This document shows positions 31,737 to 48,889 of a DNA stretch of 64,000 nucleotides, piece by piece; positions within the stretch are counted from its first letter, which is position 1, and each line of letters starts with the position of its first letter. The stretch lies in assembly GCA_021776335.1 (NCBI GenBank), contig JAJFGB010000009.1, positions 868,001 through 932,000 on the forward strand, read 5' to 3'. The notes below the pieces were generated by a model. It was given only the letters and a program-made list of their open reading frames with translations, searched no databases and was not told the DNA's origin. The DNA is from Hyphococcus sp. (GTDB lineage: Bacteria > Pseudomonadota > Alphaproteobacteria > Caulobacterales > Parvularculaceae). Position numbers and translations under genes: made by a program.

Positions 31737-34319
31737 TCAGGATCGGGAGCCTCGGGTAATCCTGCGGATATTTTCTTCGGTGAGCGCGTCGGTGGCGCCG
31801 CCGCCAATGATCTTCTGAATGGCTTCAATGTTAGCGTAGATTTTGATCGCTTCGGGCTTTTCATCTTTGCCGATCTTGGTCGCCCATTCCGGGTTATCGA
31901 TAAGGATATCGGCAACCGCAGGATAGCGTTGCTCAAGCACCGTCCAGCGGGCGATGGTTTCGGCGCTTGTCTCGAAGTCATTTTCCAGAACGCCGACAAT
32001 GTTACGCATGGTAAAGGCGTTGATCATGCGCACCATCAACCGGGGAATGTCAGGCAGATAGGCAGCATATTGTCGAAGCAGATGCTTCTGCTGTTTTTCC
32101 GCTTCCCGCGAGGTGTTGAGAACTTCTGCAGCTGCCGCTTTTCGAACCGAAGTGCTTTTTTCGCCTAGTTCTTTGTTGATGTCTTCGCGTGTGGCGCCGG
32201 CAGTGTATTTCTTGCCGAGGTCTTCGACTTCTTTTTTGACTGCCTCCTGAAAGTCTGCTTCGCTCAGGACCGGTTCCGCAGCTTCGACGATTTCATCGGC
32301 GGGTCTTGGGTCATCGCCGCTGGCGCCTGTGGCAAGACGATTAACATGGTCTTTTTTTAACTCATCGCTGATGCCGGGCACCGGCACGGACATTTGGAAT
32401 ATTTTTTCAAGAAACAGATAACCGAGCGGCTGTCCTGGTTTGCTGACTTTTGGCGCGAACGATTCATAGCGGGTTTCAAATGCGGCTTTGATCCAATTTT
32501 TATCTGCGGCGACCACATAGACGACATTTTCGTGCCGGAAGGCAGTCTGAACGCCTTCCAACAGATCAACGACAAAATCCGCGTTGCAGCGGTCGAGGTC
32601 ATCAATGAATATGCCGATCGGCGCCTCTACATCTTCGACAATGGTGCGAAAAAGTTTAGTGACGCGTTTTAGCGGGTCTTTAGAGAGTTCCGCGTGGCGC
32701 TCAGCATTCTTGGCGGCGCCATGCACGAACCAACGTCCGACAAGTGCCAGGGCTCCAAACGCCGCAGCGCCGGAGGTTAAAACCGAGAATAGTGTTTTGA
32801 CACCGCCGCTGCCTCCAAAGGATGGAATGAGCAGCAAAACTCCAAGCAAAAGTATAAATATCGCTGCAGCGATCAGATAAGGTCCCGCGACCGCCCAAAT
32901 ATTTGAAAAATGCCATCGCCGCCAAAGTCTGTTTGCAGTTTTTTGGTTGCCGTTAGTGAAATAAAAGCGTGCAACGGTTTTTTGAAGGGAAGCGAGTGTT
33001 CGGTTGTAGGTTTTCCGTTTTTTCTTATCCACACAACACTTGTCCAGATGCGCCTGACCGGCGCGATGCAGCGCTTCCATTAACGGCCACCAGGGCGGGT
33101 TGCGCCGCTCATGGCGCCAGGCGTTGAAATTGACAATCACCCAGCGCGCATCCGATGGCCGCTCCGGGGAGGTCATGTAATCTTCCATCATTTTGAGAAT
33201 GGAAGTTTTTCCTGCGCCCCACGGCGCATGCAGATGAACCGCAAAACCGTCGCCGCGTACGTCGTCCGCGCGGCCTGTTTCAGCCAGCGCCTCACGCTCT
33301 TTTGCCAGCGCCCCCAGTTGTGCGATGCGCACATTATTAATCCGCTGGGCCAGCGCTTCGGCGAAAGGTTTGCGTCCGAGAAGATCGAGCCGTGTCGCGC
33401 GGTCAGGAACAACTTTTGTGTCTTCAATGATGCGGGGCGGTAGTGGGGTTGGCGTCGTCGTAACGACCTGCTCCCCTCCAACAATCTGTGAAATATCCGT
33501 CATGACCACGTCGGGATCACGCTCCCAGAATTCATTGTCCTTGGTGGCAATTTTGAGGTCGGCTTTTTCGCCGAAGACGCTGTGAGGTTTCGTATAGGGA
33601 TCGTCGGGCAACAGTGCACGATACCACTCAGCGATTAAGCCCAAGCGGCTTGTTTCAGCCCCAGCTCTACGCTCGAATTCTTCCACGATTTCGCGCGCCC
33701 AAACAGGGATATTGGATGCGGTTGGAACGCCTAGTCGCCTGTCGTTCAGCCACAGAGGCTGGCGCGTCAAATTTGCTCCGCCGTCAAGTTTGCCGGATTG
33801 CTTTTCCAGCCAGAGCGCGTCGGACTGAATAGCCCTCCAGAGATAATCGCGAACACCGGCTTCCGAGATGTTGCTAGCGTAATCGGCAGCGTTCAAGGCG
33901 GCGGCGGCGGCGGCGGCCTGGTTGATGCTGGCGGCGGCGCGGGCGGCGCTGCTGGCGGCCCCGCTAGCAGCGATATTTTCAATGGATATTGCGCTGCCGA
34001 CGATGACGGCGTTGGCAGCTTCGGTGACGTGGGCAGAGAGTTCGAGCTTAACAGTTTCCACTGTTTTGACTATCTCGCCAAATGATACGTTCGCCAAAAA
34101 TACCGCGCGAAAGGACTGCAAAACCAAGGGCGGCAGCCAGTCAGGTTGCGTTTCACCTTTTTTTGGATTCGCGGTCTTTAATACCAGCGGAAAAACCCGA
34201 AGCGCAATACGTAGGGCGACCGCCTGTGCGTCGGCGCTCGATCGTCGATTTAGCCAGCGCACTAACGCCTCCAAACTATCGATTGTATCGGGCGTCGGTT
34301 CTTCGATTGGCTTGGCCAT
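31737..34319 (-). CDS. KAP family P-loop NTPase with two membrane spans
   Basis: 860 residues from ATG 34319 (GGGAGAT Shine-Dalgarno at six bases). Order: a helical N-terminal domain with an alanine-rich stretch (about 116-148), a linker with FWERDPDVVMTDIS, then the KAP domain. Walker A is HAPWGAGKTS (364-373), FNAWRHE follows, two membrane spans are inserted near 478-498 and 512-530, and Walker B is GIFIDDLDRC (569-578). The C-terminus is helical. KAP NTPases are membrane-associated STAND-like ATPases proposed to assemble signalling or defence complexes. It is a single-gene unit, followed after 20 bases by the end of the convergent hydrolase gene. Confidence 0.9.
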   Translation of the reverse strand: MAKPIEEPTPDTIDSLEALVRWLNRRSSADAQAVALRIALRVFPLVLKTANPKKGETQPDWLPPLVLQSFRAVFLANVSFGEIVKTVETVKLELSAHVTEAANAVIVGSAISIENIAASGAASSAARAAASINQAAAAAAALNAADYASNISEAGVRDYLWRAIQSDALWLEKQSGKLDGGANLTRQPLWLNDRRLGVPTASNIPVWAREIVEEFERRAGAETSRLGLIAEWYRALLPDDPYTKPHSVFGEKADLKIATKDNEFWERDPDVVMTDISQIVGGEQVVTTTPTPLPPRIIEDTKVVPDRATRLDLLGRKPFAEALAQRINNVRIAQLGALAKEREALAETGRADDVRGDGFAVHLHAPWGAGKTSILKMMEDYMTSPERPSDARWVIVNFNAWRHERRNPPWWPLMEALHRAGQAHLDKCCVDKKKRKTYNRTLASLQKTVARFYFTNGNQKTANRLWRRWHFSNIWAVAGPYLIAAAIFILLLGVLLLIPSFGGSGGVKTLFSVLTSGAAAFGALALVGRWFVHGAAKNAERHAELSKDPLKRVTKLFRTIVEDVEAPIGIFIDDLDRCNADFVVDLLEGVQTAFRHENVVYVVAADKNWIKAAFETRYESFAPKVSKPGQPLGYLFLEKIFQMSVPVPGISDELKKDHVNRLATGASGDDPRPADEIVEAAEPVLSEADFQEAVKKEVEDLGKKYTAGATREDINKELGEKSTSVRKAAAAEVLNTSREAEKQQKHLLRQYAAYLPDIPRLMVRMINAFTMRNIVGVLENDFETSAETIARWTVLEQRYPAVADILIDNPEWATKIGKDEKPEAIKIYANIEAIQKIIGGGATDALTEENIRRITRGSRS
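33890..33990. repeat. GCG/GGC trinucleotide-rich tract in the KAP gene
   Basis: Imperfect trinucleotide-rich run (strongest at 33897-33965), reading on the coding strand as a poly-alanine helix AAAAAAALNAAD. Such tracts are prone to length change. Confidence 0.5.
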
Positions 34320-34464
34320 GGTTGATCTCCCGGCGCGCATCATGGCGGCGCGCGAACAACAGCGCAAGCAAGCGCAGGCAAGTGATGGTTATGTTGTAAC
34401 TCTGATTTTGTTTTGTGAACTACGCTTCACGGCGTTGCATACACTATAATTTATACACAATGGC

Positions 34465-34571
34465 CATGCTCGGCTTTATGCCGAGCATCTCGGGCAACCG
34501 GCGAAAGTTGTCGATCTACTCCGGGTCGGTCCTGTGATGCCTGAGATCGTCGGAACAAGTCCGACGATGAC
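34465..34571. repeat. REP-like element, copy 1
   Basis: Two hairpins: ATGCTCGGC / GCCGAGCAT (34466-34474, 34480-34488) with loop TTTAT, and ATCGTCGGA / TCCGACGAT (34546-34554, 34560-34568) with loop ACAAG. The same pair of hairpins in the same order and orientation recurs at 36271-36369; the central 50 bases differ. Lies between the KAP and S41 genes. Confidence 0.85.
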
Positions 34572-36270: not shown

Positions 36271-36369
36271 CATGCTCGGATTTATTCCGAGCATCTCCGG
36301 AAACCAGCGCGAACGTTCTGATGTTCACGCACATTTGCCTGAGATCGTCGGAACAAGCCCGACGATGAC
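36271..36369. repeat. REP-like element, copy 2
   Basis: Same two-hairpin arrangement as 34465-34571: ATGCTCGGA / TCCGAGCAT (36272-36280, 36286-36294) and ATCGTCGG / CCGACGAT (36344-36351, 36359-36366). The closing base pair of the first stem differs from copy 1 by a compensatory change (C-G to A-T). Lies between rpoD and marR; with copy 1 it brackets the MarR-S41 pair. Confidence 0.85.
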
Positions 36370-40331: not shown

Positions 40332-40644
40332 GGTCGATAAACAGGTTCCGGCGGACGTCCAGGCAAGGTTCCGCGTGGGCTTCGGGCCGCCATCCTTATT
40401 TGGCTGGATCGGCGGGAGAAAGCCCTTTTACGGTAGAATTGGCTGATATTGGCTGGATTCAGCGGCTGGCGCCTGCCTATTTCTCCACAGGGCTGCTTGC
40501 GCGAGGGGTTAGCTGATTGTTTCACGGCAGCGCTTTTGATAGTTTGTCCACACAGGGTATGCGGGGGCACGCCTAAATCGGGGCGCTCGCCGCAGCATTT
40601 GTGGGGAATGGGCAGCCACGGGGGATCCCCCAGGGGAGTTGGTT
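40332..40644. other. intergenic region between divergent dnaG and TIR-WD40 genes
   Basis: 313 bases. Contains TTCTCCACA (40481-40489) and TTGTCCACA (40544-40552), each one mismatch from a DnaA box, and the palindrome listed at 40620. No small gene or RNA recognised. Confidence 0.4.
40620..40631. promoter_or_regulatory. GGGGGATCCCCC palindrome before the TIR-WD40 ribosome site
   Basis: Perfect 12-bp palindrome immediately followed by the Shine-Dalgarno AGGGGAG (40632-40638). The C-run could pair with the G-run of the ribosome site, so it may lower translation of the TTG-initiated gene, or bind a regulator as DNA. Confidence 0.4.
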
Positions 40645-42804
40645 TTGGCGAATCACGACGTTTTTATTTCATATTCGCGCGAAGATCGCCCGAAGATCGA
40701 AAAGCTTGCTCATGCGCTGACGCAAAAGGGCTTACGGGTCTGGTGGGACCCAGATATCAAAACCGGCGCCGGTTTCCGTCAGGAGATTGCTGACGCCCTG
40801 GACAGCACGCGATCGGTGCTGGTTGTCTGGTCACGCAATTCTGTCGGGTCGCGCTTTGTCTGCGACGAGGCCGATGAAGGCGCGGCGCGCGATGTTTTGT
40901 TTCCAGCGCTGATCGACAATGTCGATATCCCGCTCGGCTTCCGGCAAATTCAAACAGCAGATTTAACCCATTGGCGCGGCAATCTGAATGACCCTGCGCT
41001 GAAGGCTTTCGTTGACGCCATCCAAAATGGCGCGCGCAGCGGCGGCGGCGCCCCTGCCCGCCGACGTGCGCCTGAGCCGGCAGCGGAACCTGCTGCCGAA
41101 CCTGTTCGAGAGACGGCGAAGCCGGCAAAAAAAGTAAAGCCACCCAAGCAAAAGAAAATGCCAAAACAACGAAGCGCTTCAAGCAAATACACGACCACCG
41201 GTTCGCAAAAGCGTCTGGCTCTTTATGGCCAGGCGGTGTTCATGGCGGGGTTGATCGCCGCCGCGTTTGCGGCGCTGGCCTATACGTCAGATTTTGTATT
41301 TCCAACCTATCGGCCGTTCTTTGTCGGCGGCATGGGGTTACTCGCCTTTCTGTCACGCATCGGCACGCTCGAAGCCGACCGCGCCGCCGGCGCAGCATCG
41401 CTTGCGTTGCTGCCGCGTTCCTTCATTGCGCTGATTTTGTTTTCGCTGATCGCAACGGCGCCGCTTCTTCTGGAGGGGCGGATTTATGCGGCCGCTCTTG
41501 AAGGCGTTCAGGTCAAAGGGATTGACGGCGCTGACATTAATAATGTCACGCTTGATCAGGCCGGCGACCGGCTCTTAACGTCGTCAGACGATTCAACCGT
41601 AAAGCTGTGGGATGCACGCACCGGTGTCGAGCTGGGCGCCTTTACCGACCACGAAGAGTGGGTTTGGGGCGCCGATTTTTCACCTGAAGGAGACTTTGCC
41701 GTTTCCGCTTCGCGCGATCTGTCGGCCAATATCTGGAAAACATCAAACGCCAAACTGGTGCGCAAGTTAACCGGCCATGCAAATTCGGTCGTTGACGCCG
41801 CCTGGTCGCCGGATGGATCAGCGATTGCCACAGCCAGCAATGATGACACAATTATTATTTGGGACCCTGAGACCGGCGACATCCTCCGCACGCTGACAGG
41901 CCATAGCGACAACGTGAATGCGGTTGATTTTGATCCCGCTGGAAATATTCTCGCTTCGGCGTCTGCGGACGGCAATGTTCGTTTGTGGAACTGGCGCAAT
42001 GGCGCCCGCATCGGCGCCGTTTCAATTGGCGGTCCCGGCAATGATGTGAAATTCTCCAATGACGGGTCGATGTTTGCCGCGGCCGCGGATAATGGCCGCA
42101 TTCGACTGTGGCGCACACAGTCGCGCGACCGCATCGCCAGTTTCAACCATGGCGCTGACAAAGCCTTTGCTGTCGCCTTTGTTGACGGCGACAATAAACT
42201 TGCCACCAGCGGCATTGATCCGGTGATCCGCCTTTGGAATGTCGCCGATCAGACTGTCGCTGCGGAGCTCGAAGGCCACCAGCGCGGCGTGCGCGGCCTG
42301 GACTCTTCGTCTGACGGGACGAGGTTGGTCAGCGGTTCCCGCGATAACACGGCGCGTGTCTGGGATGTGACAAGCGGCAAGGAGATCATCACGATGGGCC
42401 ATATCACCTCGGCGATTGACCTGCCCATGGCGATTGATACGCCGCCGCTTTTTGTATCTTCGCAAGCGCCAGTGCCGGTGGATTTCACTAAAGACCCCGC
42501 TGCTGCGGGTTACCTTCTTGGCAAAGGCGTCGCCATTGCTTTTGCGATTCTGTTCGCTGCACTGATTGTCAAAGGGATTTTGTGGGTCTTGCGCGCGCGC
42601 GCAATCGCCCGGCCGACAGTTGTGGCGGCGCTGTTTGCGGTCGCCGCCTATGTCGGTCTCTTGATTGCGTCCGCCCTGCCCGTCGAAGCGCTCAGCCTCT
42701 GGGCGACACTCGCCTTTATCCCGGCGACAGTCTTTGCGCTGTTACGCTGGATGTGGCGCTCCGCCATTTTGAGCAACATCAACAAGCGTGGGCGTAAGGG
42801 CTAG
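40645..42804 (+). CDS. membrane TIR domain - WD40 repeat protein
   Basis: 719 residues from TTG 40645 (AGGGGAG six bases upstream); another TTG two codons earlier is possible. TIR domain at 1-135: NHDVFISYSREDRPKIEKL, LRVWWDPDI, and VWSRNSV with the candidate NADase glutamate E75 in FVCDEAD. A Pro/Lys/Ala linker (about 135-185) and three hydrophobic spans (about 190-285) follow. Then about seven WD40 repeats (285-585, e.g. DDSTVKLWDARTG, DDTIIIWDPETG, DNTARVWDVTSG) and three C-terminal spans ending ALLRWMWRSAILSN. The domain order suggests an NAD-cleaving or scaffolding TIR output governed by a beta-propeller sensor. Its last 54 coding bases but 16 are duplicated at 44883. Confidence 0.9.
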   Translation: MANHDVFISYSREDRPKIEKLAHALTQKGLRVWWDPDIKTGAGFRQEIADALDSTRSVLVVWSRNSVGSRFVCDEADEGAARDVLFPALIDNVDIPLGFRQIQTADLTHWRGNLNDPALKAFVDAIQNGARSGGGAPARRRAPEPAAEPAAEPVRETAKPAKKVKPPKQKKMPKQRSASSKYTTTGSQKRLALYGQAVFMAGLIAAAFAALAYTSDFVFPTYRPFFVGGMGLLAFLSRIGTLEADRAAGAASLALLPRSFIALILFSLIATAPLLLEGRIYAAALEGVQVKGIDGADINNVTLDQAGDRLLTSSDDSTVKLWDARTGVELGAFTDHEEWVWGADFSPEGDFAVSASRDLSANIWKTSNAKLVRKLTGHANSVVDAAWSPDGSAIATASNDDTIIIWDPETGDILRTLTGHSDNVNAVDFDPAGNILASASADGNVRLWNWRNGARIGAVSIGGPGNDVKFSNDGSMFAAAADNGRIRLWRTQSRDRIASFNHGADKAFAVAFVDGDNKLATSGIDPVIRLWNVADQTVAAELEGHQRGVRGLDSSSDGTRLVSGSRDNTARVWDVTSGKEIITMGHITSAIDLPMAIDTPPLFVSSQAPVPVDFTKDPAAAGYLLGKGVAIAFAILFAALIVKGILWVLRARAIARPTVVAALFAVAAYVGLLIASALPVEALSLWATLAFIPATVFALLRWMWRSAILSNINKRGRKG
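42735..42788. repeat. 54-bp direct repeat, left copy (3' end of TIR-WD40 gene)
   Basis: Identical over 54 bases to 44883-44936. This copy encodes the penultimate residues of the TIR-WD40 protein (ALLRWMWRSAILSNINKR), after which that protein ends GRKG-stop. Confidence 0.97.
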
Positions 42805-42853
42805 TCTGCGCTAGAGCGGTTGGGGAATCGCAAATTGCTGTCGGTGAAACTCC

Positions 42854-44746
42854 CTATTGAGTCAGCCCCGATACGCCTGCGAGGATGAACGAAACAAGGA
42901 TGAATCCCGTTAAAATATGCGCCGCAAAATAATATCGGCGCCAGCTATCGAATTCGATCTTGTAGTGTGGTTCGTGTAATTTGACGACTGGTATGAGTAG
43001 ATCAAGACTAAAAAAAATGCTCTCGGCAGGTCTTGTGGTTTCTGCCACCGATGACGTCTTGTGGACAACCGCACCAATAGCAACGAAACCGGCTATCCAG
43101 ATCAACGCCAAGTAAATGCGGTAGCCATAGCCGATCAAAAACTTGTGAAGCGTCAGATTGATCCAACTCAATCCTTCTGCCCGCTGCCGTTGTTTTTCCT
43201 TGCTGGCATAGAGTATTTCTGCTGCAACATTAGGTCTGTCTTCGCGTTCCAGCGCACTTGCCAATTGATTGTAGGGTTGAGACGAAAACCTGCTCTTCTC
43301 GAGCCAGTGTTGCTTGTACCAGTCTGCGTCCAACGTGTTGTTCACGTCCTCGCCGACGATTGTTGTTAAGCGTTGATATTGAAGCCCTTCCAGTGAGAGC
43401 GGCCATGGATTTTCGCTCGTTTTGTTCGGTAGTGCGTGCTCAGATATCGCAATCCGTTGAACCAGCGCTTCTCCCAAATAGATTGAAGCGCCTTCTCCCC
43501 AGGTGGCTGTTTCCGTGCCGTTGGAAAACTGTAAGACACCGGTGATTTTAGCGCTGGATAGATAAATAGCCTGCTCAAAATGTGCTCCGCGCATTAGTAA
43601 ATGCGTGCCAACCTGAACGCTATCCATCTCCAAATCGCCTGCGAATTTTGCTCCGCCCACCCCAATTTGGCCTTTTATAGTAGCGCTGATCATATTGATT
43701 ACGAGGTTGGCCTCAGGATTTTCTGGGTTGGCGAGCGCAAACTCGGCGTCATGCATCAACAAATGCCCATCTATCTGGATACTGCTCATTTCCAAAAGGC
43801 CTTTGAATTTGGCTCCCAACATGGAAACCTGACCGCCAACATTGGCACTGCTTAGATTGACAACGCGTGGGGAGTGAGCGTTTTTGGGATTGGCGAGTGT
43901 GAACTCGGCATTATCCATCAACAAAAGTTCGCCGATCTGAATACCATTCATGTCCAACTGGCCTGTGAATTTGGCCCCGCTCATCGAAACTTCCCCGTCA
44001 ACTCTGGCGCCGATCAGATCGACGACAGGAAGGGCATTTAGGTTCTCGGGGTTGGCAGGTCCGATCTCGGCGCTGCGCATAAACAAACTCCTGCCGACCC
44101 GAATACTGTTCATATTCAATTCGCCTGTAAATTTGGCTTCATCAAAATTTGCGTAGCTGTCGATACTGGCGCCGCTAAGATTCACAGTGACGAAATGTGC
44201 GCCGGCGCCCATAAATAGAGATTTACCGATGTGCGCGTCATACAACTCCAACTCTTGTTCAAATTGGGAATTATCAAAGCTCAACGATCTGTTGAATTCG
44301 GCGCCAGGAAAAAAAACGGGCCCTTTGAACAGTGAGCCGGTGAGTTCCAATTGAGCATCGATCCTGGCGTTGGAAAAATTCAAGCTTTCCAGAAACAATG
44401 CGCCGTCAATCCCAACGCCTTTTTCCGGAATAGCATCGCGAAAGGGCGCACGAAGCAGAATGGTTTTCAAAAACCGTTCACTCAGAACTCGATCCGCGGG
44501 AAAATCCATTTTATTACTCGACGACAATGGTACGCCGCCGTCCCGCATGTTGAGGTCGGCTGTTCTTCCCTCACATATCTGAGTCCAGACCCATTTTTCC
44601 TGGGCGCTCCAGCCCAGTTCAAGACCGGGGGTTACGCGGCACGGTGCTCCTGGGTGGGCGCGTTGGTCTTGGCCCCAGGCGGACATTGCTCCGACCATAA
44701 GAGAGATAGCGACGACAAGCCCCAAGCTTTTGCTGTGGTTGGACAT
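42854..44746 (-). CDS. pentapeptide-like beta-solenoid membrane protein
   Basis: 630 residues. Signal peptide (about 1-25), then a repeat region rich in LxF/AxF steps. Four tandem units of exactly 54 residues begin at 193, 247, 301 and 355, each with an AKF (at 204, 258, 312, 366), a block like GQLDMNSIQIGxxLLMxxAEF and a linker ANPEN. Then come a helical part and two membrane spans (about 528-550, 605-626), with SIFFSLDLLIPVVKLHEP between, a sequence seen at the end of large pentapeptide membrane proteins. Function unknown; possibly an envelope scaffold. It lies between the two 54-bp direct repeats and is AT-richer than the flanking housekeeping genes. Confidence 0.75.
   Translation of the reverse strand: MSNHSKSLGLVVAISLMVGAMSAWGQDQRAHPGAPCRVTPGLELGWSAQEKWVWTQICEGRTADLNMRDGGVPLSSSNKMDFPADRVLSERFLKTILLRAPFRDAIPEKGVGIDGALFLESLNFSNARIDAQLELTGSLFKGPVFFPGAEFNRSLSFDNSQFEQELELYDAHIGKSLFMGAGAHFVTVNLSGASIDSYANFDEAKFTGELNMNSIRVGRSLFMRSAEIGPANPENLNALPVVDLIGARVDGEVSMSGAKFTGQLDMNGIQIGELLLMDNAEFTLANPKNAHSPRVVNLSSANVGGQVSMLGAKFKGLLEMSSIQIDGHLLMHDAEFALANPENPEANLVINMISATIKGQIGVGGAKFAGDLEMDSVQVGTHLLMRGAHFEQAIYLSSAKITGVLQFSNGTETATWGEGASIYLGEALVQRIAISEHALPNKTSENPWPLSLEGLQYQRLTTIVGEDVNNTLDADWYKQHWLEKSRFSSQPYNQLASALEREDRPNVAAEILYASKEKQRQRAEGLSWINLTLHKFLIGYGYRIYLALIWIAGFVAIGAVVHKTSSVAETTRPAESIFFSLDLLIPVVKLHEPHYKIEFDSWRRYYFAAHILTGFILVSFILAGVSGLTQ
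43530..44170. repeat. 162-bp tandem coding repeats in the pentapeptide-like gene
   Basis: Four tandem units with a protein period of exactly 54 residues. The units are diverged at DNA level, so the duplication is not recent. The fourth unit is incomplete at its end. Confidence 0.8.
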
Positions 44747-44882
44747 GAACCCTCATGAGTTGATTACATGCGTCGTCTACTGTTTATTATAGAAGTCCAT
44801 GAGAAAAAACAATATAGATGCAACCCGCTTCGAGTGTGAGAGATCGCTCCCGCAGCGATCTTCGCAATGCAGCGCATTTCTA

Positions 44883-44936
44883 TGCGCTGTTACGCTGGAT
44901 GTGGCGCTCCGCCATTTTGAGCAACATCAACAAGCG
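44883..44936. repeat. 54-bp direct repeat, right copy (orphan TIR-WD40 gene end)
   Basis: Identical to 42735-42788. Read in the same frame it encodes the same residues and then continues SPKKI-stop (TAG at 44952-44954), a complete alternative C-terminus with no gene body in front of it. Confidence 0.95.
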
Positions 44937-45010
44937 CAGCCCAAAAAAAATCTAGGATATTGACCGCATCTCTGACTAGCCGTTTGCGGAATGCGGCGTG
45001 GCGCATGAGG

Positions 45011-45089: not shown

Positions 45090-45575
45090 TCATCGCACAC
45101 GGGCAAACCACGTTAATTTGGAATTGAGCGTTATTGCAGTCCGCCCAAGATCTGCGCCACCGTACACTGAAGCTCGTGCAAGGCCGTACTGCCCTCTTGT
45201 GTCGATCCATTCATAGGTCAGATATGGCGGGGACCTCACGACAACGATTGGCTCCACGCCATTAACCAAGGCGACATTCGTGCTTTGGCAGCCGAGATGT
45301 TCAACGCCGCCGACGCTAAACGCCTCAACAAAATCGCAAGTCCGTACATATTGGTCGTCAACCATTACCTTGACGTCAGCACCCGCGCGCATGGCTCTTA
45401 GGAGCCGCTTTAAGGTTCCACGCTCAACAGAGCCAACTGAATCTGTTTCATAAGCCACAACCCACCCGCTAATTTTTTCTGGATCGCCAGATACGTCAGC
45501 GCGAAGGGGCGTTGTATAGAAAGCGATTGCGATCGCTGACATCAAGTACATGCTCAGCCTGTTCATCTTCCTCAT
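45090..45575 (-). CDS. small secreted protein, unknown
   Basis: 161 residues from ATG 45575, with GGAG eight bases upstream. Signal peptide with cleavage near TPLRA-DVS (about residue 26). The mature part has two cysteines (VRTCDFVEAF and EHLGCQST), likely a disulfide, and a beta-rich pattern (YEWIDTRGQYGLARASVYGGADL). No family recognised. Divergent from the AraC-type regulator with 109 bases between the start codons, so it is a plausible target of that regulator. Confidence 0.55.
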   Translation of the reverse strand: MRKMNRLSMYLMSAIAIAFYTTPLRADVSGDPEKISGWVVAYETDSVGSVERGTLKRLLRAMRAGADVKVMVDDQYVRTCDFVEAFSVGGVEHLGCQSTNVALVNGVEPIVVVRSPPYLTYEWIDTRGQYGLARASVYGGADLGRTAITLNSKLTWFARVR

Positions 45576-45684: not shown

Positions 45685-46692
45685 ATGGCCGAAACTTATG
45701 TCCCAATTCATTTTTTGAAGAACCTTGTCGATCTTATCGCGGATGAGGAAGGGTATCACCGCTCCCATGTTTTGCGCGGTACGGGCATCACTGTGTCAGA
45801 GATAATGGACGAAGGCGGTCTGGCGACATTCGCTCAGTCTACGGCGGTTTATGAGCGGGTGGCTGAACTGTCGACCTTGCCAGGGATCGGTTTTCGCTCG
45901 CCTTCAGCATCCAGCTTCGCCGATCAGGGGGTGTTGGGTGCGATGTTAATTACGGCGCCGACGGTCGGTGTGGCGTTTCAAAAACTCAGTGAGTTCATCG
46001 ATGTGATTGGCGGTACGGTGGATTATGGCTACAGAATTGAAAATGACAACTTTGTTGTAACGTGTACAGATAAGGACTCTTATTCCCCATCTGCCCATAT
46101 GTTGATCACGGAAGAAAATCTTGCGGTTTGGAAGTTCATTAGCCTACCGATAGCTCATCTCGATTCTTATTTGAAAGAAATTCGCGTTGACTACCCAAGG
46201 CCAAAACACTGGCGCATGTATGTAGACCTGTTTCCAGAGTGTGAAATTCGTTTTAAGCAAACGGAGGTTGCAGCTGTCCTATCTCGGGACGTTGTGGATA
46301 TGCCTATTCAAACAAACAACCCAAAAGCCCATAAGAATTTGGAACAGGCCTGCGAAGAGTTGATGAGCCGGATCAACCCCAGCATGTATAGTCGCGTCGT
46401 GGAGTTTCTTAATAAAGCCAAACCTTGTGAATGGAGCGTATCAAATATCGCTGACGGACTGAACACCACACAAAAAACGCTGCGGCGAAGGCTGGGCAGA
46501 GAGGGGCACTCCGCGCGCGATATGCTTACTGCGCACAAAAAGCACTATTCTATGGAGTTGTTGGCAAAGGGCGATGACGACAAAAGAGTCGCCGCTACTT
46601 TAGGTTATTCTGATAGAACGTCTTTTGCCCGCAGCTTCAAGCAATGGACCGGCCTGACGCCAAGTCTCTACAGAAGGCGCCATTGCCGATAG
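45685..46692 (+). CDS. AraC family transcriptional regulator (OruR/ArgR-like)
   Basis: 335 residues. The N-terminal domain (about 1-200) matches the arabinose-binding-like domain of the OruR/AraC subfamily (GVLGAMLITAPTVGVAFQKLSEFI, HWRMYVDLFPECEIRFKQ). C-terminal double helix-turn-helix: WSVSNIADGLNTTQKTLRRRLGREGHSARDML and DKRVAATLGYSDRTSFARSFKQWTGLTPSLYRR. The ligand is unknown. It lies inside the TIR island, AT-richer than rpoD or dnaG, and is the only regulator there, so it may govern neighbouring genes. Confidence 0.9.
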   Translation: MAETYVPIHFLKNLVDLIADEEGYHRSHVLRGTGITVSEIMDEGGLATFAQSTAVYERVAELSTLPGIGFRSPSASSFADQGVLGAMLITAPTVGVAFQKLSEFIDVIGGTVDYGYRIENDNFVVTCTDKDSYSPSAHMLITEENLAVWKFISLPIAHLDSYLKEIRVDYPRPKHWRMYVDLFPECEIRFKQTEVAAVLSRDVVDMPIQTNNPKAHKNLEQACEELMSRINPSMYSRVVEFLNKAKPCEWSVSNIADGLNTTQKTLRRRLGREGHSARDMLTAHKKHYSMELLAKGDDDKRVAATLGYSDRTSFARSFKQWTGLTPSLYRRRHCR

Positions 46693-46732
46693 ATCTTCGA
46701 CAGAACTCTGTCGAGCAGGCAAGCCCTGAATA

Positions 46733-48739
46733 TTAATCGCATTCAAAATCCGTCTCAGATAAAACGTGGCATTGCGGCGGAAATCCCGCTTCACGCCAAT
46801 AGGCGACAAGCCCTAAATCTTCCGTAAGCTGCTTAAATTGCGGCGTTTTGCGATAGTGAGAAAATTGCGGCAGCCACAGATAAACATAATCATTGTCAAA
46901 TGTGTTGACATTGATGTCGTCATAAGCCCGCAGCGCCAGCATAAGGTTGGTGTTGTCCGAGACATCGACTCTCTTTTTATCGCCCCAATTCAGGAAGGTC
47001 TGGAGCCGGCCTGGCCGCTGGTCGTCAGGATCTTCCAATGCGCTGATCAGCTCATAATGGGGAAAGCCCACCTGCCAGTTCTCCATGCGTGAAGCGGCAT
47101 AGGCCATCATGCGTTCGTCGCGCATGAGGAGCGCTGGAATATAAACATCGAACCCTCTAAAATAGTTGGCCTCAGCGTTCACATTGGCATCGGCCATCGC
47201 TGCGTCCATGTCGCCCAAGACAAAATTGGAGGCAGACCGGTAGCGTCGGCATTGTTTGCGGGTTTCATCGAGTTCGAGACATTTCGTAAAAGCATTGACA
47301 GCATTGTCATGGGCGCCGACAGCCATATAGTTCATACCAATCCACTGCCACGCGCTGACATTTTTCGAATCGCGCTCCAGCGCTTTGTTGAGATTGTCAA
47401 AGCTCTCCGCCCAGGGCGTTGGGTAATGGGTGCGATAGGTCAGCCCGATAACCGCGTAAGGCATGGAAAGATCTGGATCGATTTCCAGCGCCTTTTTATT
47501 GGTGACGAGCGCCAGGGCCGAATAATCCCGGTCCGATATGCCATAGCTGGTGGCGACGCCGTAAACAGCCGCCAGCCCTTCCCATCCCCTGGCAAACCCC
47601 GGATCCATTTCAACCACACGCTCAAACAGATGCATGCTTCTTTCAAGGGTTGCGCGACCGGCGCTGCGCCCAAGATAGAGCTCGCGCGCTTCAAGATACA
47701 TTTCATAAGCGCTGATATTTTCAGTGTCGCGTTTTTTGACGATTGGCGCGCCGGCAGTCTCGATGCCGAATTCCTTGCGCAGTTGAACGACAACGGCGGT
47801 GGCGATCTCATCCTGAATGCGAAAGATATCTGTTGATTGCCGGTCAAAAGTATCTGACCATAAATGCTTGTTATCGCGGGCGTTGATCAGCTGTGCAGTG
47901 ATCCGCACTTCATCGCCCATTTTGCGGACGCTGCCTTCAAGGATGTGATTGACTTTAAGGCGGCCGGCGATGTCCTCGATATCGATATTGAGTTCTTCGA
48001 TCTTGCTTTCGGTATAGGTGAAAGATGAAGTGCGTGACGCAACGCCCAGGCCTTCAACGCCAACAAGCAGGTTTAAGAGCTCCTCCGACAAGCCTCGCGC
48101 GAAGAAATCCTGATTGCCCTCTGGCGACATGTCGGCAAAAGGCAGGACTGCAATTGAAACTTCGGATGGCCCCGGCAGCGCGCCTGAAGCCGGCCCATCG
48201 TTGGGGCCCAATCCGCCGCCCATAAAGAACAAAACAATTAACCCCACCAGCGCGAGCGCAGCTGCGCCGGCGCTGAGCCGGTAGGGCGTTTCCGTCATGA
48301 TTTTCTGGACCCAGGTTTTCTTCGCTGGCGTCGGCGGAACAAGCGCTTCACCGCCGCTAATTTCCGCAATGGCGCTCAGCAGTGAGTGCGTCGCCGGTGC
48401 AGCCGGATCGCCCTTCCAGTTTTGAAAATCGATGGTCTGATATTGCCGAAATCCCATGGGCGCTTCGCAATCAGTGAGGCAAATCGGGATCAGCTTGCCC
48501 TTGTCGCGCGCAAAAACCGCTTCATCCTTGACCCAGTCAGATTCATTGGCGTCTGACGACCAGGCAACGATAATGGCGTCGGCTTTGTGAAGCTGGGCCT
48601 CGATATCCTTGGCAAAAGCGGCGCCGCCACGGATATGGCGGTCCCACCAGACAGAATGGCCTGCCTCCTCCAGCACTGCCGACAGCTTTTCGATGACCGG
48701 CCGGTCATTTCGCGAATAGCTGATGAATAAATGCGCCAT
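46733..48739 (-). CDS. TIR domain - TolB-like - TPR membrane protein
   Basis: 668 residues from ATG 48739. TIR domain at 1-140: [27 protein letters not shown], candidate catalytic E73 in WVKDEAVF, and [12 protein letters not shown], closely matching the TIR of the WD40 protein 6 kb away. One membrane span near 180-200. Then a TolB-amino/FlgO-like domain (about 215-340, [60 protein letters not shown]), then TPR-type helices to about 620. Such proteins are often labelled adenylate cyclase-like but no cyclase domain is present. A membrane signalling protein is likely; NADase activity is untested. Confidence 0.88.
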
Positions 48740-48889
48740 TCCTGCTGTCCCGACCTCTCCCTGTCCGCTTGTGTTGCGGCGGAGCGCCTGTCGCCCACGG
48801 GTTTGTCTATAGCCCAATCTGCACGTCTTTGTAGGGAAATCGATATAACCCCTTGCTTACCGGCTAAAAATAGCGCACCTCGCGGCCCC

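Follow-up and report, generated by a model that had tools for sequence, protein, structure and literature searches.

A 54-bp direct repeat beside acquired genes at a variably filled site between convergent TIR-WD40 and TIR-TPR genes of Hyphococcus sp.

A gene end present twice

In a 64-kb stretch of the Hyphococcus sp. genome (the window; 64,000 nt), the last part of a gene encoding a TIR-WD40 protein occurs a second time, past a pentapeptide-repeat gene. The question raised by this locus is how a gene end came to stand on its own: whether the repeated bases are the attachment site of a cassette that replaced the end of the gene, or the scar of another kind of join. The features concerned are as follows (window positions).

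40639..42804, + strand: TIR-WD40 gene (Pfam TIR_2 and WD40), adjoining a dnaG-like gene
42735..42788, + strand: left 54-bp copy, within the TIR-WD40 end (codons 699 to 717 of 721)
42789..42804, + strand: gene end past the left copy, ..RGRKG-stop, a family-type tail
42854..44746, - strand: gene for a pentapeptide-repeat protein of 630 aa (Pfam PF13576)
44835..44890, no strand: two tandem hairpins at the cassette end (DNA fold)
44883..44936, + strand: right 54-bp copy (orphan)
44937..44955, + strand: right tail, the last base of an Arg codon, then SPKKI-stop
44957..44969, + strand: ATATTGACCGCAT, right after the right stop, sharing 11 of its 13 bases with the end of the TIR-TPR gene (46730-46742)
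45090..45575, - strand: 161-aa ORF, no Pfam match and no match in 59 relatives
45685..46692, + strand: AraC-type regulator gene, with distant paralogues only in relatives
46733..48817, - strand: TIR-TPR gene (Pfam), convergent neighbour of TIR-WD40

The copies at 42735-42788 and 44883-44936 are identical at 54 of 54 positions, in the same orientation and the same frame; extended leftwards to 42731 and 44879, the comparison gives 57 identical bases out of 58 (one mismatch). No exact direct repeat in the window is longer than this pair, and the runner-up measures 22 nt. Exact direct repeats of at least 40 bases were found in one of 20 stretches of 20 kb sampled from the same genome (400 kb of 4.18 Mb, each stretch compared within itself), where they lay within a gene of 309-nt periodicity. 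The original prediction, made from the sequence of this DNA, had described the arrangement correctly: 54 identical bases in one orientation, the left copy inside TIR-WD40 and followed by GRKG-stop, the right copy leading in frame to SPKKI-stop with no gene before it (no further TIR-WD40 sequence was detected in the insert), and between them a single gene, whose pentapeptide type agrees with its Pfam match. The prediction had also asked whether the 54-bp sequence flanks other cargo elsewhere in this genome; a whole-genome search returned just these two places and no third copy. The exact 54-mer had no match in viral contigs either. The 54-bp duplication beside acquired genes is real and recent-looking, and it is ordinary in kind.

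Acquired genes between TIR-WD40 and TIR-TPR

The 2.1-kb segment between the copies had been taken for the whole insert, which is in fact about 3.9 kb long, with two more genes past the right copy. Its order is pentapeptide gene, two hairpins, 54-bp copy, 161-aa ORF and AraC-type gene, and we treat it as two putative blocks, the first being the pentapeptide gene and the second the 161-aa ORF together with the AraC gene. No orthologue of any of the three genes was found in the 59 relatives: the pentapeptide protein met weak matches only, in G012 and G014, and the AraC gene met paralogues with at most 26% identity across nearly the whole protein. At the DNA level there was no good match to the insert in the 27 other genomes of the genus; the two brief ones, of 53 nt (G011) and 29 nt (G002), fall within the AraC gene. 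GC content is 0.50 in both blocks versus 0.55 in the window, and the codon preference of the insert genes is lower than that of seven other genes measured. Based on the lack of orthologues and DNA matches in relatives, the lower GC and the atypical codons, both blocks look acquired. The same results, along with the compact sites in relatives described below, uphold the earlier proposal that the cassette was acquired.

In a class-wide search, the pentapeptide protein was matched in 20 of 384 other genomes. The closest homologues (G285 and G075) aligned in pieces of 37-47% identity, and in both genomes the gene is a single one amid housekeeping-type genes, as judged by reading the ORF lists. No match to the protein was found in phages; plasmids gave 22 records, all below 60% identity, and the 3.9-kb insert had no DNA-level match in plasmid records. 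Direct repeats of at least 16 nt near three distant homologues (L119, L120 and L122) stood at tandem offsets of 61-63 nt, or of 132 nt and its multiples, apart from one 16-mer pair in L119 at offset 1644, away from the pentapeptide gene. The protein may belong to an unnamed membrane family. A C-terminal motif, S-x-D-x-L-x-P ... H-Y ... S-G-L, was also read in the L119 and L120 homologues.

The same site in related genomes

A search for TIR-WD40 covered 60 genomes including its own; among the 27 other genomes of the genus, 16 had a readable 3' end of the gene, with an identity of at least 60%. The gene names dnaG, rpoD, typA and carA were assigned by reading the sequences. TIR-WD40 and TIR-TPR are convergent in 13 of these 16 relatives, between dnaG-like and typA-like genes. 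In two others (G010 and G020) TIR-TPR is missing at the spot and the typA-like gene is next to TIR-WD40, and in G018 the contig comes to its end. Measured from match to match by tblastn, the gap between the convergent genes is 8-14 nt in seven of the 13 (G026, G007, G023, G001, G017, G013 and G012) and larger in the rest, namely 61 nt in G019, 109 nt in G016, 130 nt in G006, 658 nt in G024, 727 nt in G011 and 1335 nt in G015; in the window it is about 3.9 kb. The six larger gap sequences and the window insert showed no mutual match by blastn or blastp at E 0.01. Given the varied gaps and the lack of mutual matches, about half of the relatives have a compact site and others carry different DNA there. 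Within this one genus, the space separating the convergent TIR genes is thus a site of variable cargo, and it would appear that foreign DNA has been taken up there repeatedly.

The gap insert of G015 resembles, by reading, an amine-oxidase-type gene. The 130-nt gap of G006 (L074, 4095-4224) reads as a short, MITE-like insert with terminal inverted repeats. For the TIR-WD40 and TIR-TPR pair itself, PADLOC and NCBIfam returned just weak or partial TIR and repeat matches, and a literature search found no paper on bacterial TIR-WD40.

The two possible ends of TIR-WD40

The C-terminal part of the TIR-WD40 protein is hydrophobic, as read from its sequence. According to the original prediction, the cassette appeared to have replaced the 3' end of this gene. 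The two tails were compared with those of relatives. A C-terminal profile of 16 relatives scored the protein at 69.4 bits with the left tail, 66.0 bits with the right tail and 61.8 bits with no tail, a lead of 3.4 bits for the left tail over the right. R at the second tail position is shared by 14 of the 16 relatives and the left tail and is not found in the right tail; the TIR-WD40 of G011 ends in RKG-stop, as the left tail does. Together these observations point, by a small margin, to GRKG as the ordinary end of the gene and not a replacement: RGRKG fits the family and SPKKI fits it less well, contrary to what had been proposed.

The bases that follow the right stop bear on the status of the other tail. 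At the fixed position, a match of 11 in 13 to the TIR-TPR end was equalled or exceeded by 24 of about 6000 random window segments (slightly fewer than 6000, since those lying less than 60 nt or just 60 nt from one or other site were left out). In local-alignment shuffles over 50 x 70 nt, 268 of 2000 were as good as the match between the right tail and the TIR-TPR end. The fixed-position comparison, made with the junctions of seven relatives, gave no signal for the right tail. In view of the likeness between the 13 bases behind its stop and the end of TIR-TPR, the right copy could be a true gene end too. If the likeness is real, the right copy would be an old TIR-WD40/TIR-TPR junction, with the AraC block inserted just inside it. 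The tail profile and the 13-nt likeness both fit if the two tails are true ends of two alleles. The likeness would also suit the right copy as the original end of the gene, and to that extent it counts against the explanation that we prefer below.

Hairpins and possible microhomology at the junction

A perfect 8-4-8 inverted repeat (8-bp arms) covers, with one of its arms, the left edge of the right copy: the right arm of the second hairpin, ATGCGCTG at 44882-44889, overlaps the start of the copy. The 61 nt from 44835 to 44895 fold as DNA at -19 kcal/mol (z = -4.67), and hairpin arms of this kind cover 0.41% of window positions. The arm at the edge of the right copy contains TGCGCTG (7 bp; 10/11 as TCTwTGCGCTG). 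Having the copy begin within a hairpin arm suggests an illegitimate join guided by microhomology or by the hairpin, with microhomology assessable at one of the two breakpoints. In our reading, ATGCGCTG belonged to the cassette end from the outset and agrees with the TIR-WD40 sequence by chance, so that the join would have used a microhomology of 7 bp (10/11). Less probably, the arm would belong to the core site of a recombinase. Elsewhere in the same genome, the hairpin region and the right tail met chance-level matches only (best E 0.15 and 0.59, respectively).

Proposed origin of the right copy

Probably, if far from certainly, the locus is a repeatedly filled site with two acquired blocks, in which the right copy is a by-product of a microhomology-guided illegitimate join and not an attachment site. 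On the route that we prefer, two fillings of the site, TIR-WD40-GRKG-pentapeptide and TIR-WD40-SPKKI-161aa-AraC, would have met through transfer between close strains. The incoming DNA would have paired by homology on the TIR-TPR side; on its other side it would have been joined at the 7-bp (10/11) TGCGCTG match at the foot of the hairpin, and through this join the last 54 bp in common with the second allele of TIR-WD40 would have come to lie on the right-hand side. The process we favour is thus illegitimate recombination, homology-facilitated or of a similar kind, by which a single site came to hold both fillings. We infer which allele was the donor, how the events followed one another and by which route the recombination ran, and the donor is hypothetical, as neither of the proposed single-block alleles occurs in any of the 27 other genomes of the genus (one genome per species).

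Homology-facilitated illegitimate recombination in natural transformation is outlined in PMC6382021 as a homologous anchor combined with an illegitimate join of 3-10 bp, which is the combination of anchor and short join proposed here. The process outlined there was, however, described in other, competent bacteria (PMC6382021); at this locus the donor is hypothetical. A ComEC-type gene is present in the genome (a control search found the family in 10 of 14 genomes); by itself it does not show natural transformation. Ku (PF02735) had no match in the genome, which is 99.5% complete, and the control search matched one of 14 genomes; Ku-dependent capture with filled-in staggered ends is therefore less likely.

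If the preferred route is right, the recent-looking scar may preserve a trace of the way in which two alternative inserts came together. The 54-bp direct repeats should permit loss of the pentapeptide gene by recombination, which would yield a TIR-WD40 gene with the SPKKI tail.

Alternative explanations

The same scar would be expected from tandem duplication followed by deletion, or from template switching at the hairpins; these and the preferred route are all microhomology events, and the two are close rivals of it. In the first, a 2148-bp unit (54 bp, GRKG and the pentapeptide gene) was duplicated across TGCGCTG and most of the second unit was then deleted. The shared TGCGCTG (10/11 with TCTwTGCGCTG) stands where the duplication join would sit, but two events are needed, and comparison of the flanks with the insert shows no remnant of TIR-WD40 or TIR-TPR except the 54 bp. 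We consider this course of events unlikely.

The mechanism of the original prediction is an integrase-less cassette that entered the 3' end of TIR-WD40 by site-specific integration; the att core would be the 54 bp, with GRKG as the end brought in and SPKKI as the displaced original. The geometry of the repeats agrees with it, in that direct repeats flank a segment, one of them at the 3' end of a target gene, as in integrative elements; there is one cargo gene between them, the tail past the right copy has some likeness to the end of TIR-TPR, and at the edge of the right copy an inverted repeat can be read, with arms of 7 bp and a spacer of 6 nt. Cis-mobilizable elements (CIMEs), in the account of PMC5704250, retain the attL and attR of an ICE or IME. 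The likeness is that direct repeats, here at the 3' end of a gene, enclose cargo that has no genes for integration; they differ in that no related element or integrase was found here and the cargo is a single gene. An autonomous element would be expected to have an integrase inside it or close by, and a CIME has lost its own. The prediction had noted the absence of an integrase, and no integrase or transposase was found in the 36 ORFs scanned with Pfam among 51 selected window ORFs (of at least 120 aa), and the duplication, at 54 bp, is not of the short kind left by a transposon. No further att-like copy, and so no other element using this site, was found in the genome itself or in the 59 relatives by a DNA search that misses more diverged gene ends, so that a strongly diverged copy would escape it. 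Direct repeats of at least 14 nt between gene end and gap were present in none of nine relatives checked, six of which have extra gap DNA. The target gene has a patchy distribution, occurring in 16 of 27 other genomes of the genus, and GRKG is the family-type end. Site-specific entry is accordingly improbable in our view: of the mechanism as predicted, acquisition of the cassette is supported and replacement of the gene end is not, and the whole is weakly supported and ranks below plain illegitimate recombination. If the 54 bp were nevertheless a recombination site, the locus would hold a minimal integrase-less cassette.

One apparent extra copy, in G008 (79% identity over 47 nt, E 6e-4), was set aside as chance, tblastn with TIR-WD40 on the surrounding 3.5 kb giving no E below 1.5.

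With template switching during replication, at the two strong hairpins, a short piece of the end of TIR-WD40 could have been copied, as templated filler or by what is called short-patch double illegitimate recombination. In favour of this explanation, it is at the junction that the hairpins end, and the patch is short and identical, but the TIR-TPR-like 13 nt past the right stop are left unexplained, and we find it quite unlikely. In Acinetobacter baylyi, double illegitimate recombination reportedly inserts DNA by illegitimate joins at both ends; the likeness is that template switching with a short patch also proposes joins at both ends. A literature search for intragenomic double illegitimate recombination with microhomology found none.

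A further variant seems to us very unlikely: a recombinase-less single-gene cassette, mobilized in trans by way of a hairpin-bordered recombination site (arms of 7 bp, spacer of 6 nt) that adjoins the 54-bp core, would rewrite the TIR-WD40 C-terminus whenever it enters or leaves. Duplication and decay of a full second TIR-WD40 gene, named in the original prediction as an alternative, was rejected, the insert holding the 54 bp and otherwise chance-level short matches to TIR-WD40 and TIR-TPR. An assembly artefact is hardly credible: the flanks of the two copies differ, and, ordinary sequencing reads being longer than the 54-bp repeat and both copies lying on a single 1.0-Mb contig (the assembly has 11 contigs), such an error can be taken as unlikely.

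Other observations in the window

The S41 peptidase and MarR genes stand between the two copies of a 34-nt repeat (97% identity; 34538-34571 and 36336-36369), which contains an inverted repeat. A gene at 31740-34367 encodes a KAP NTPase of 876 aa, with partial matches to the QatA, PifA and PDC-S20 defence models.
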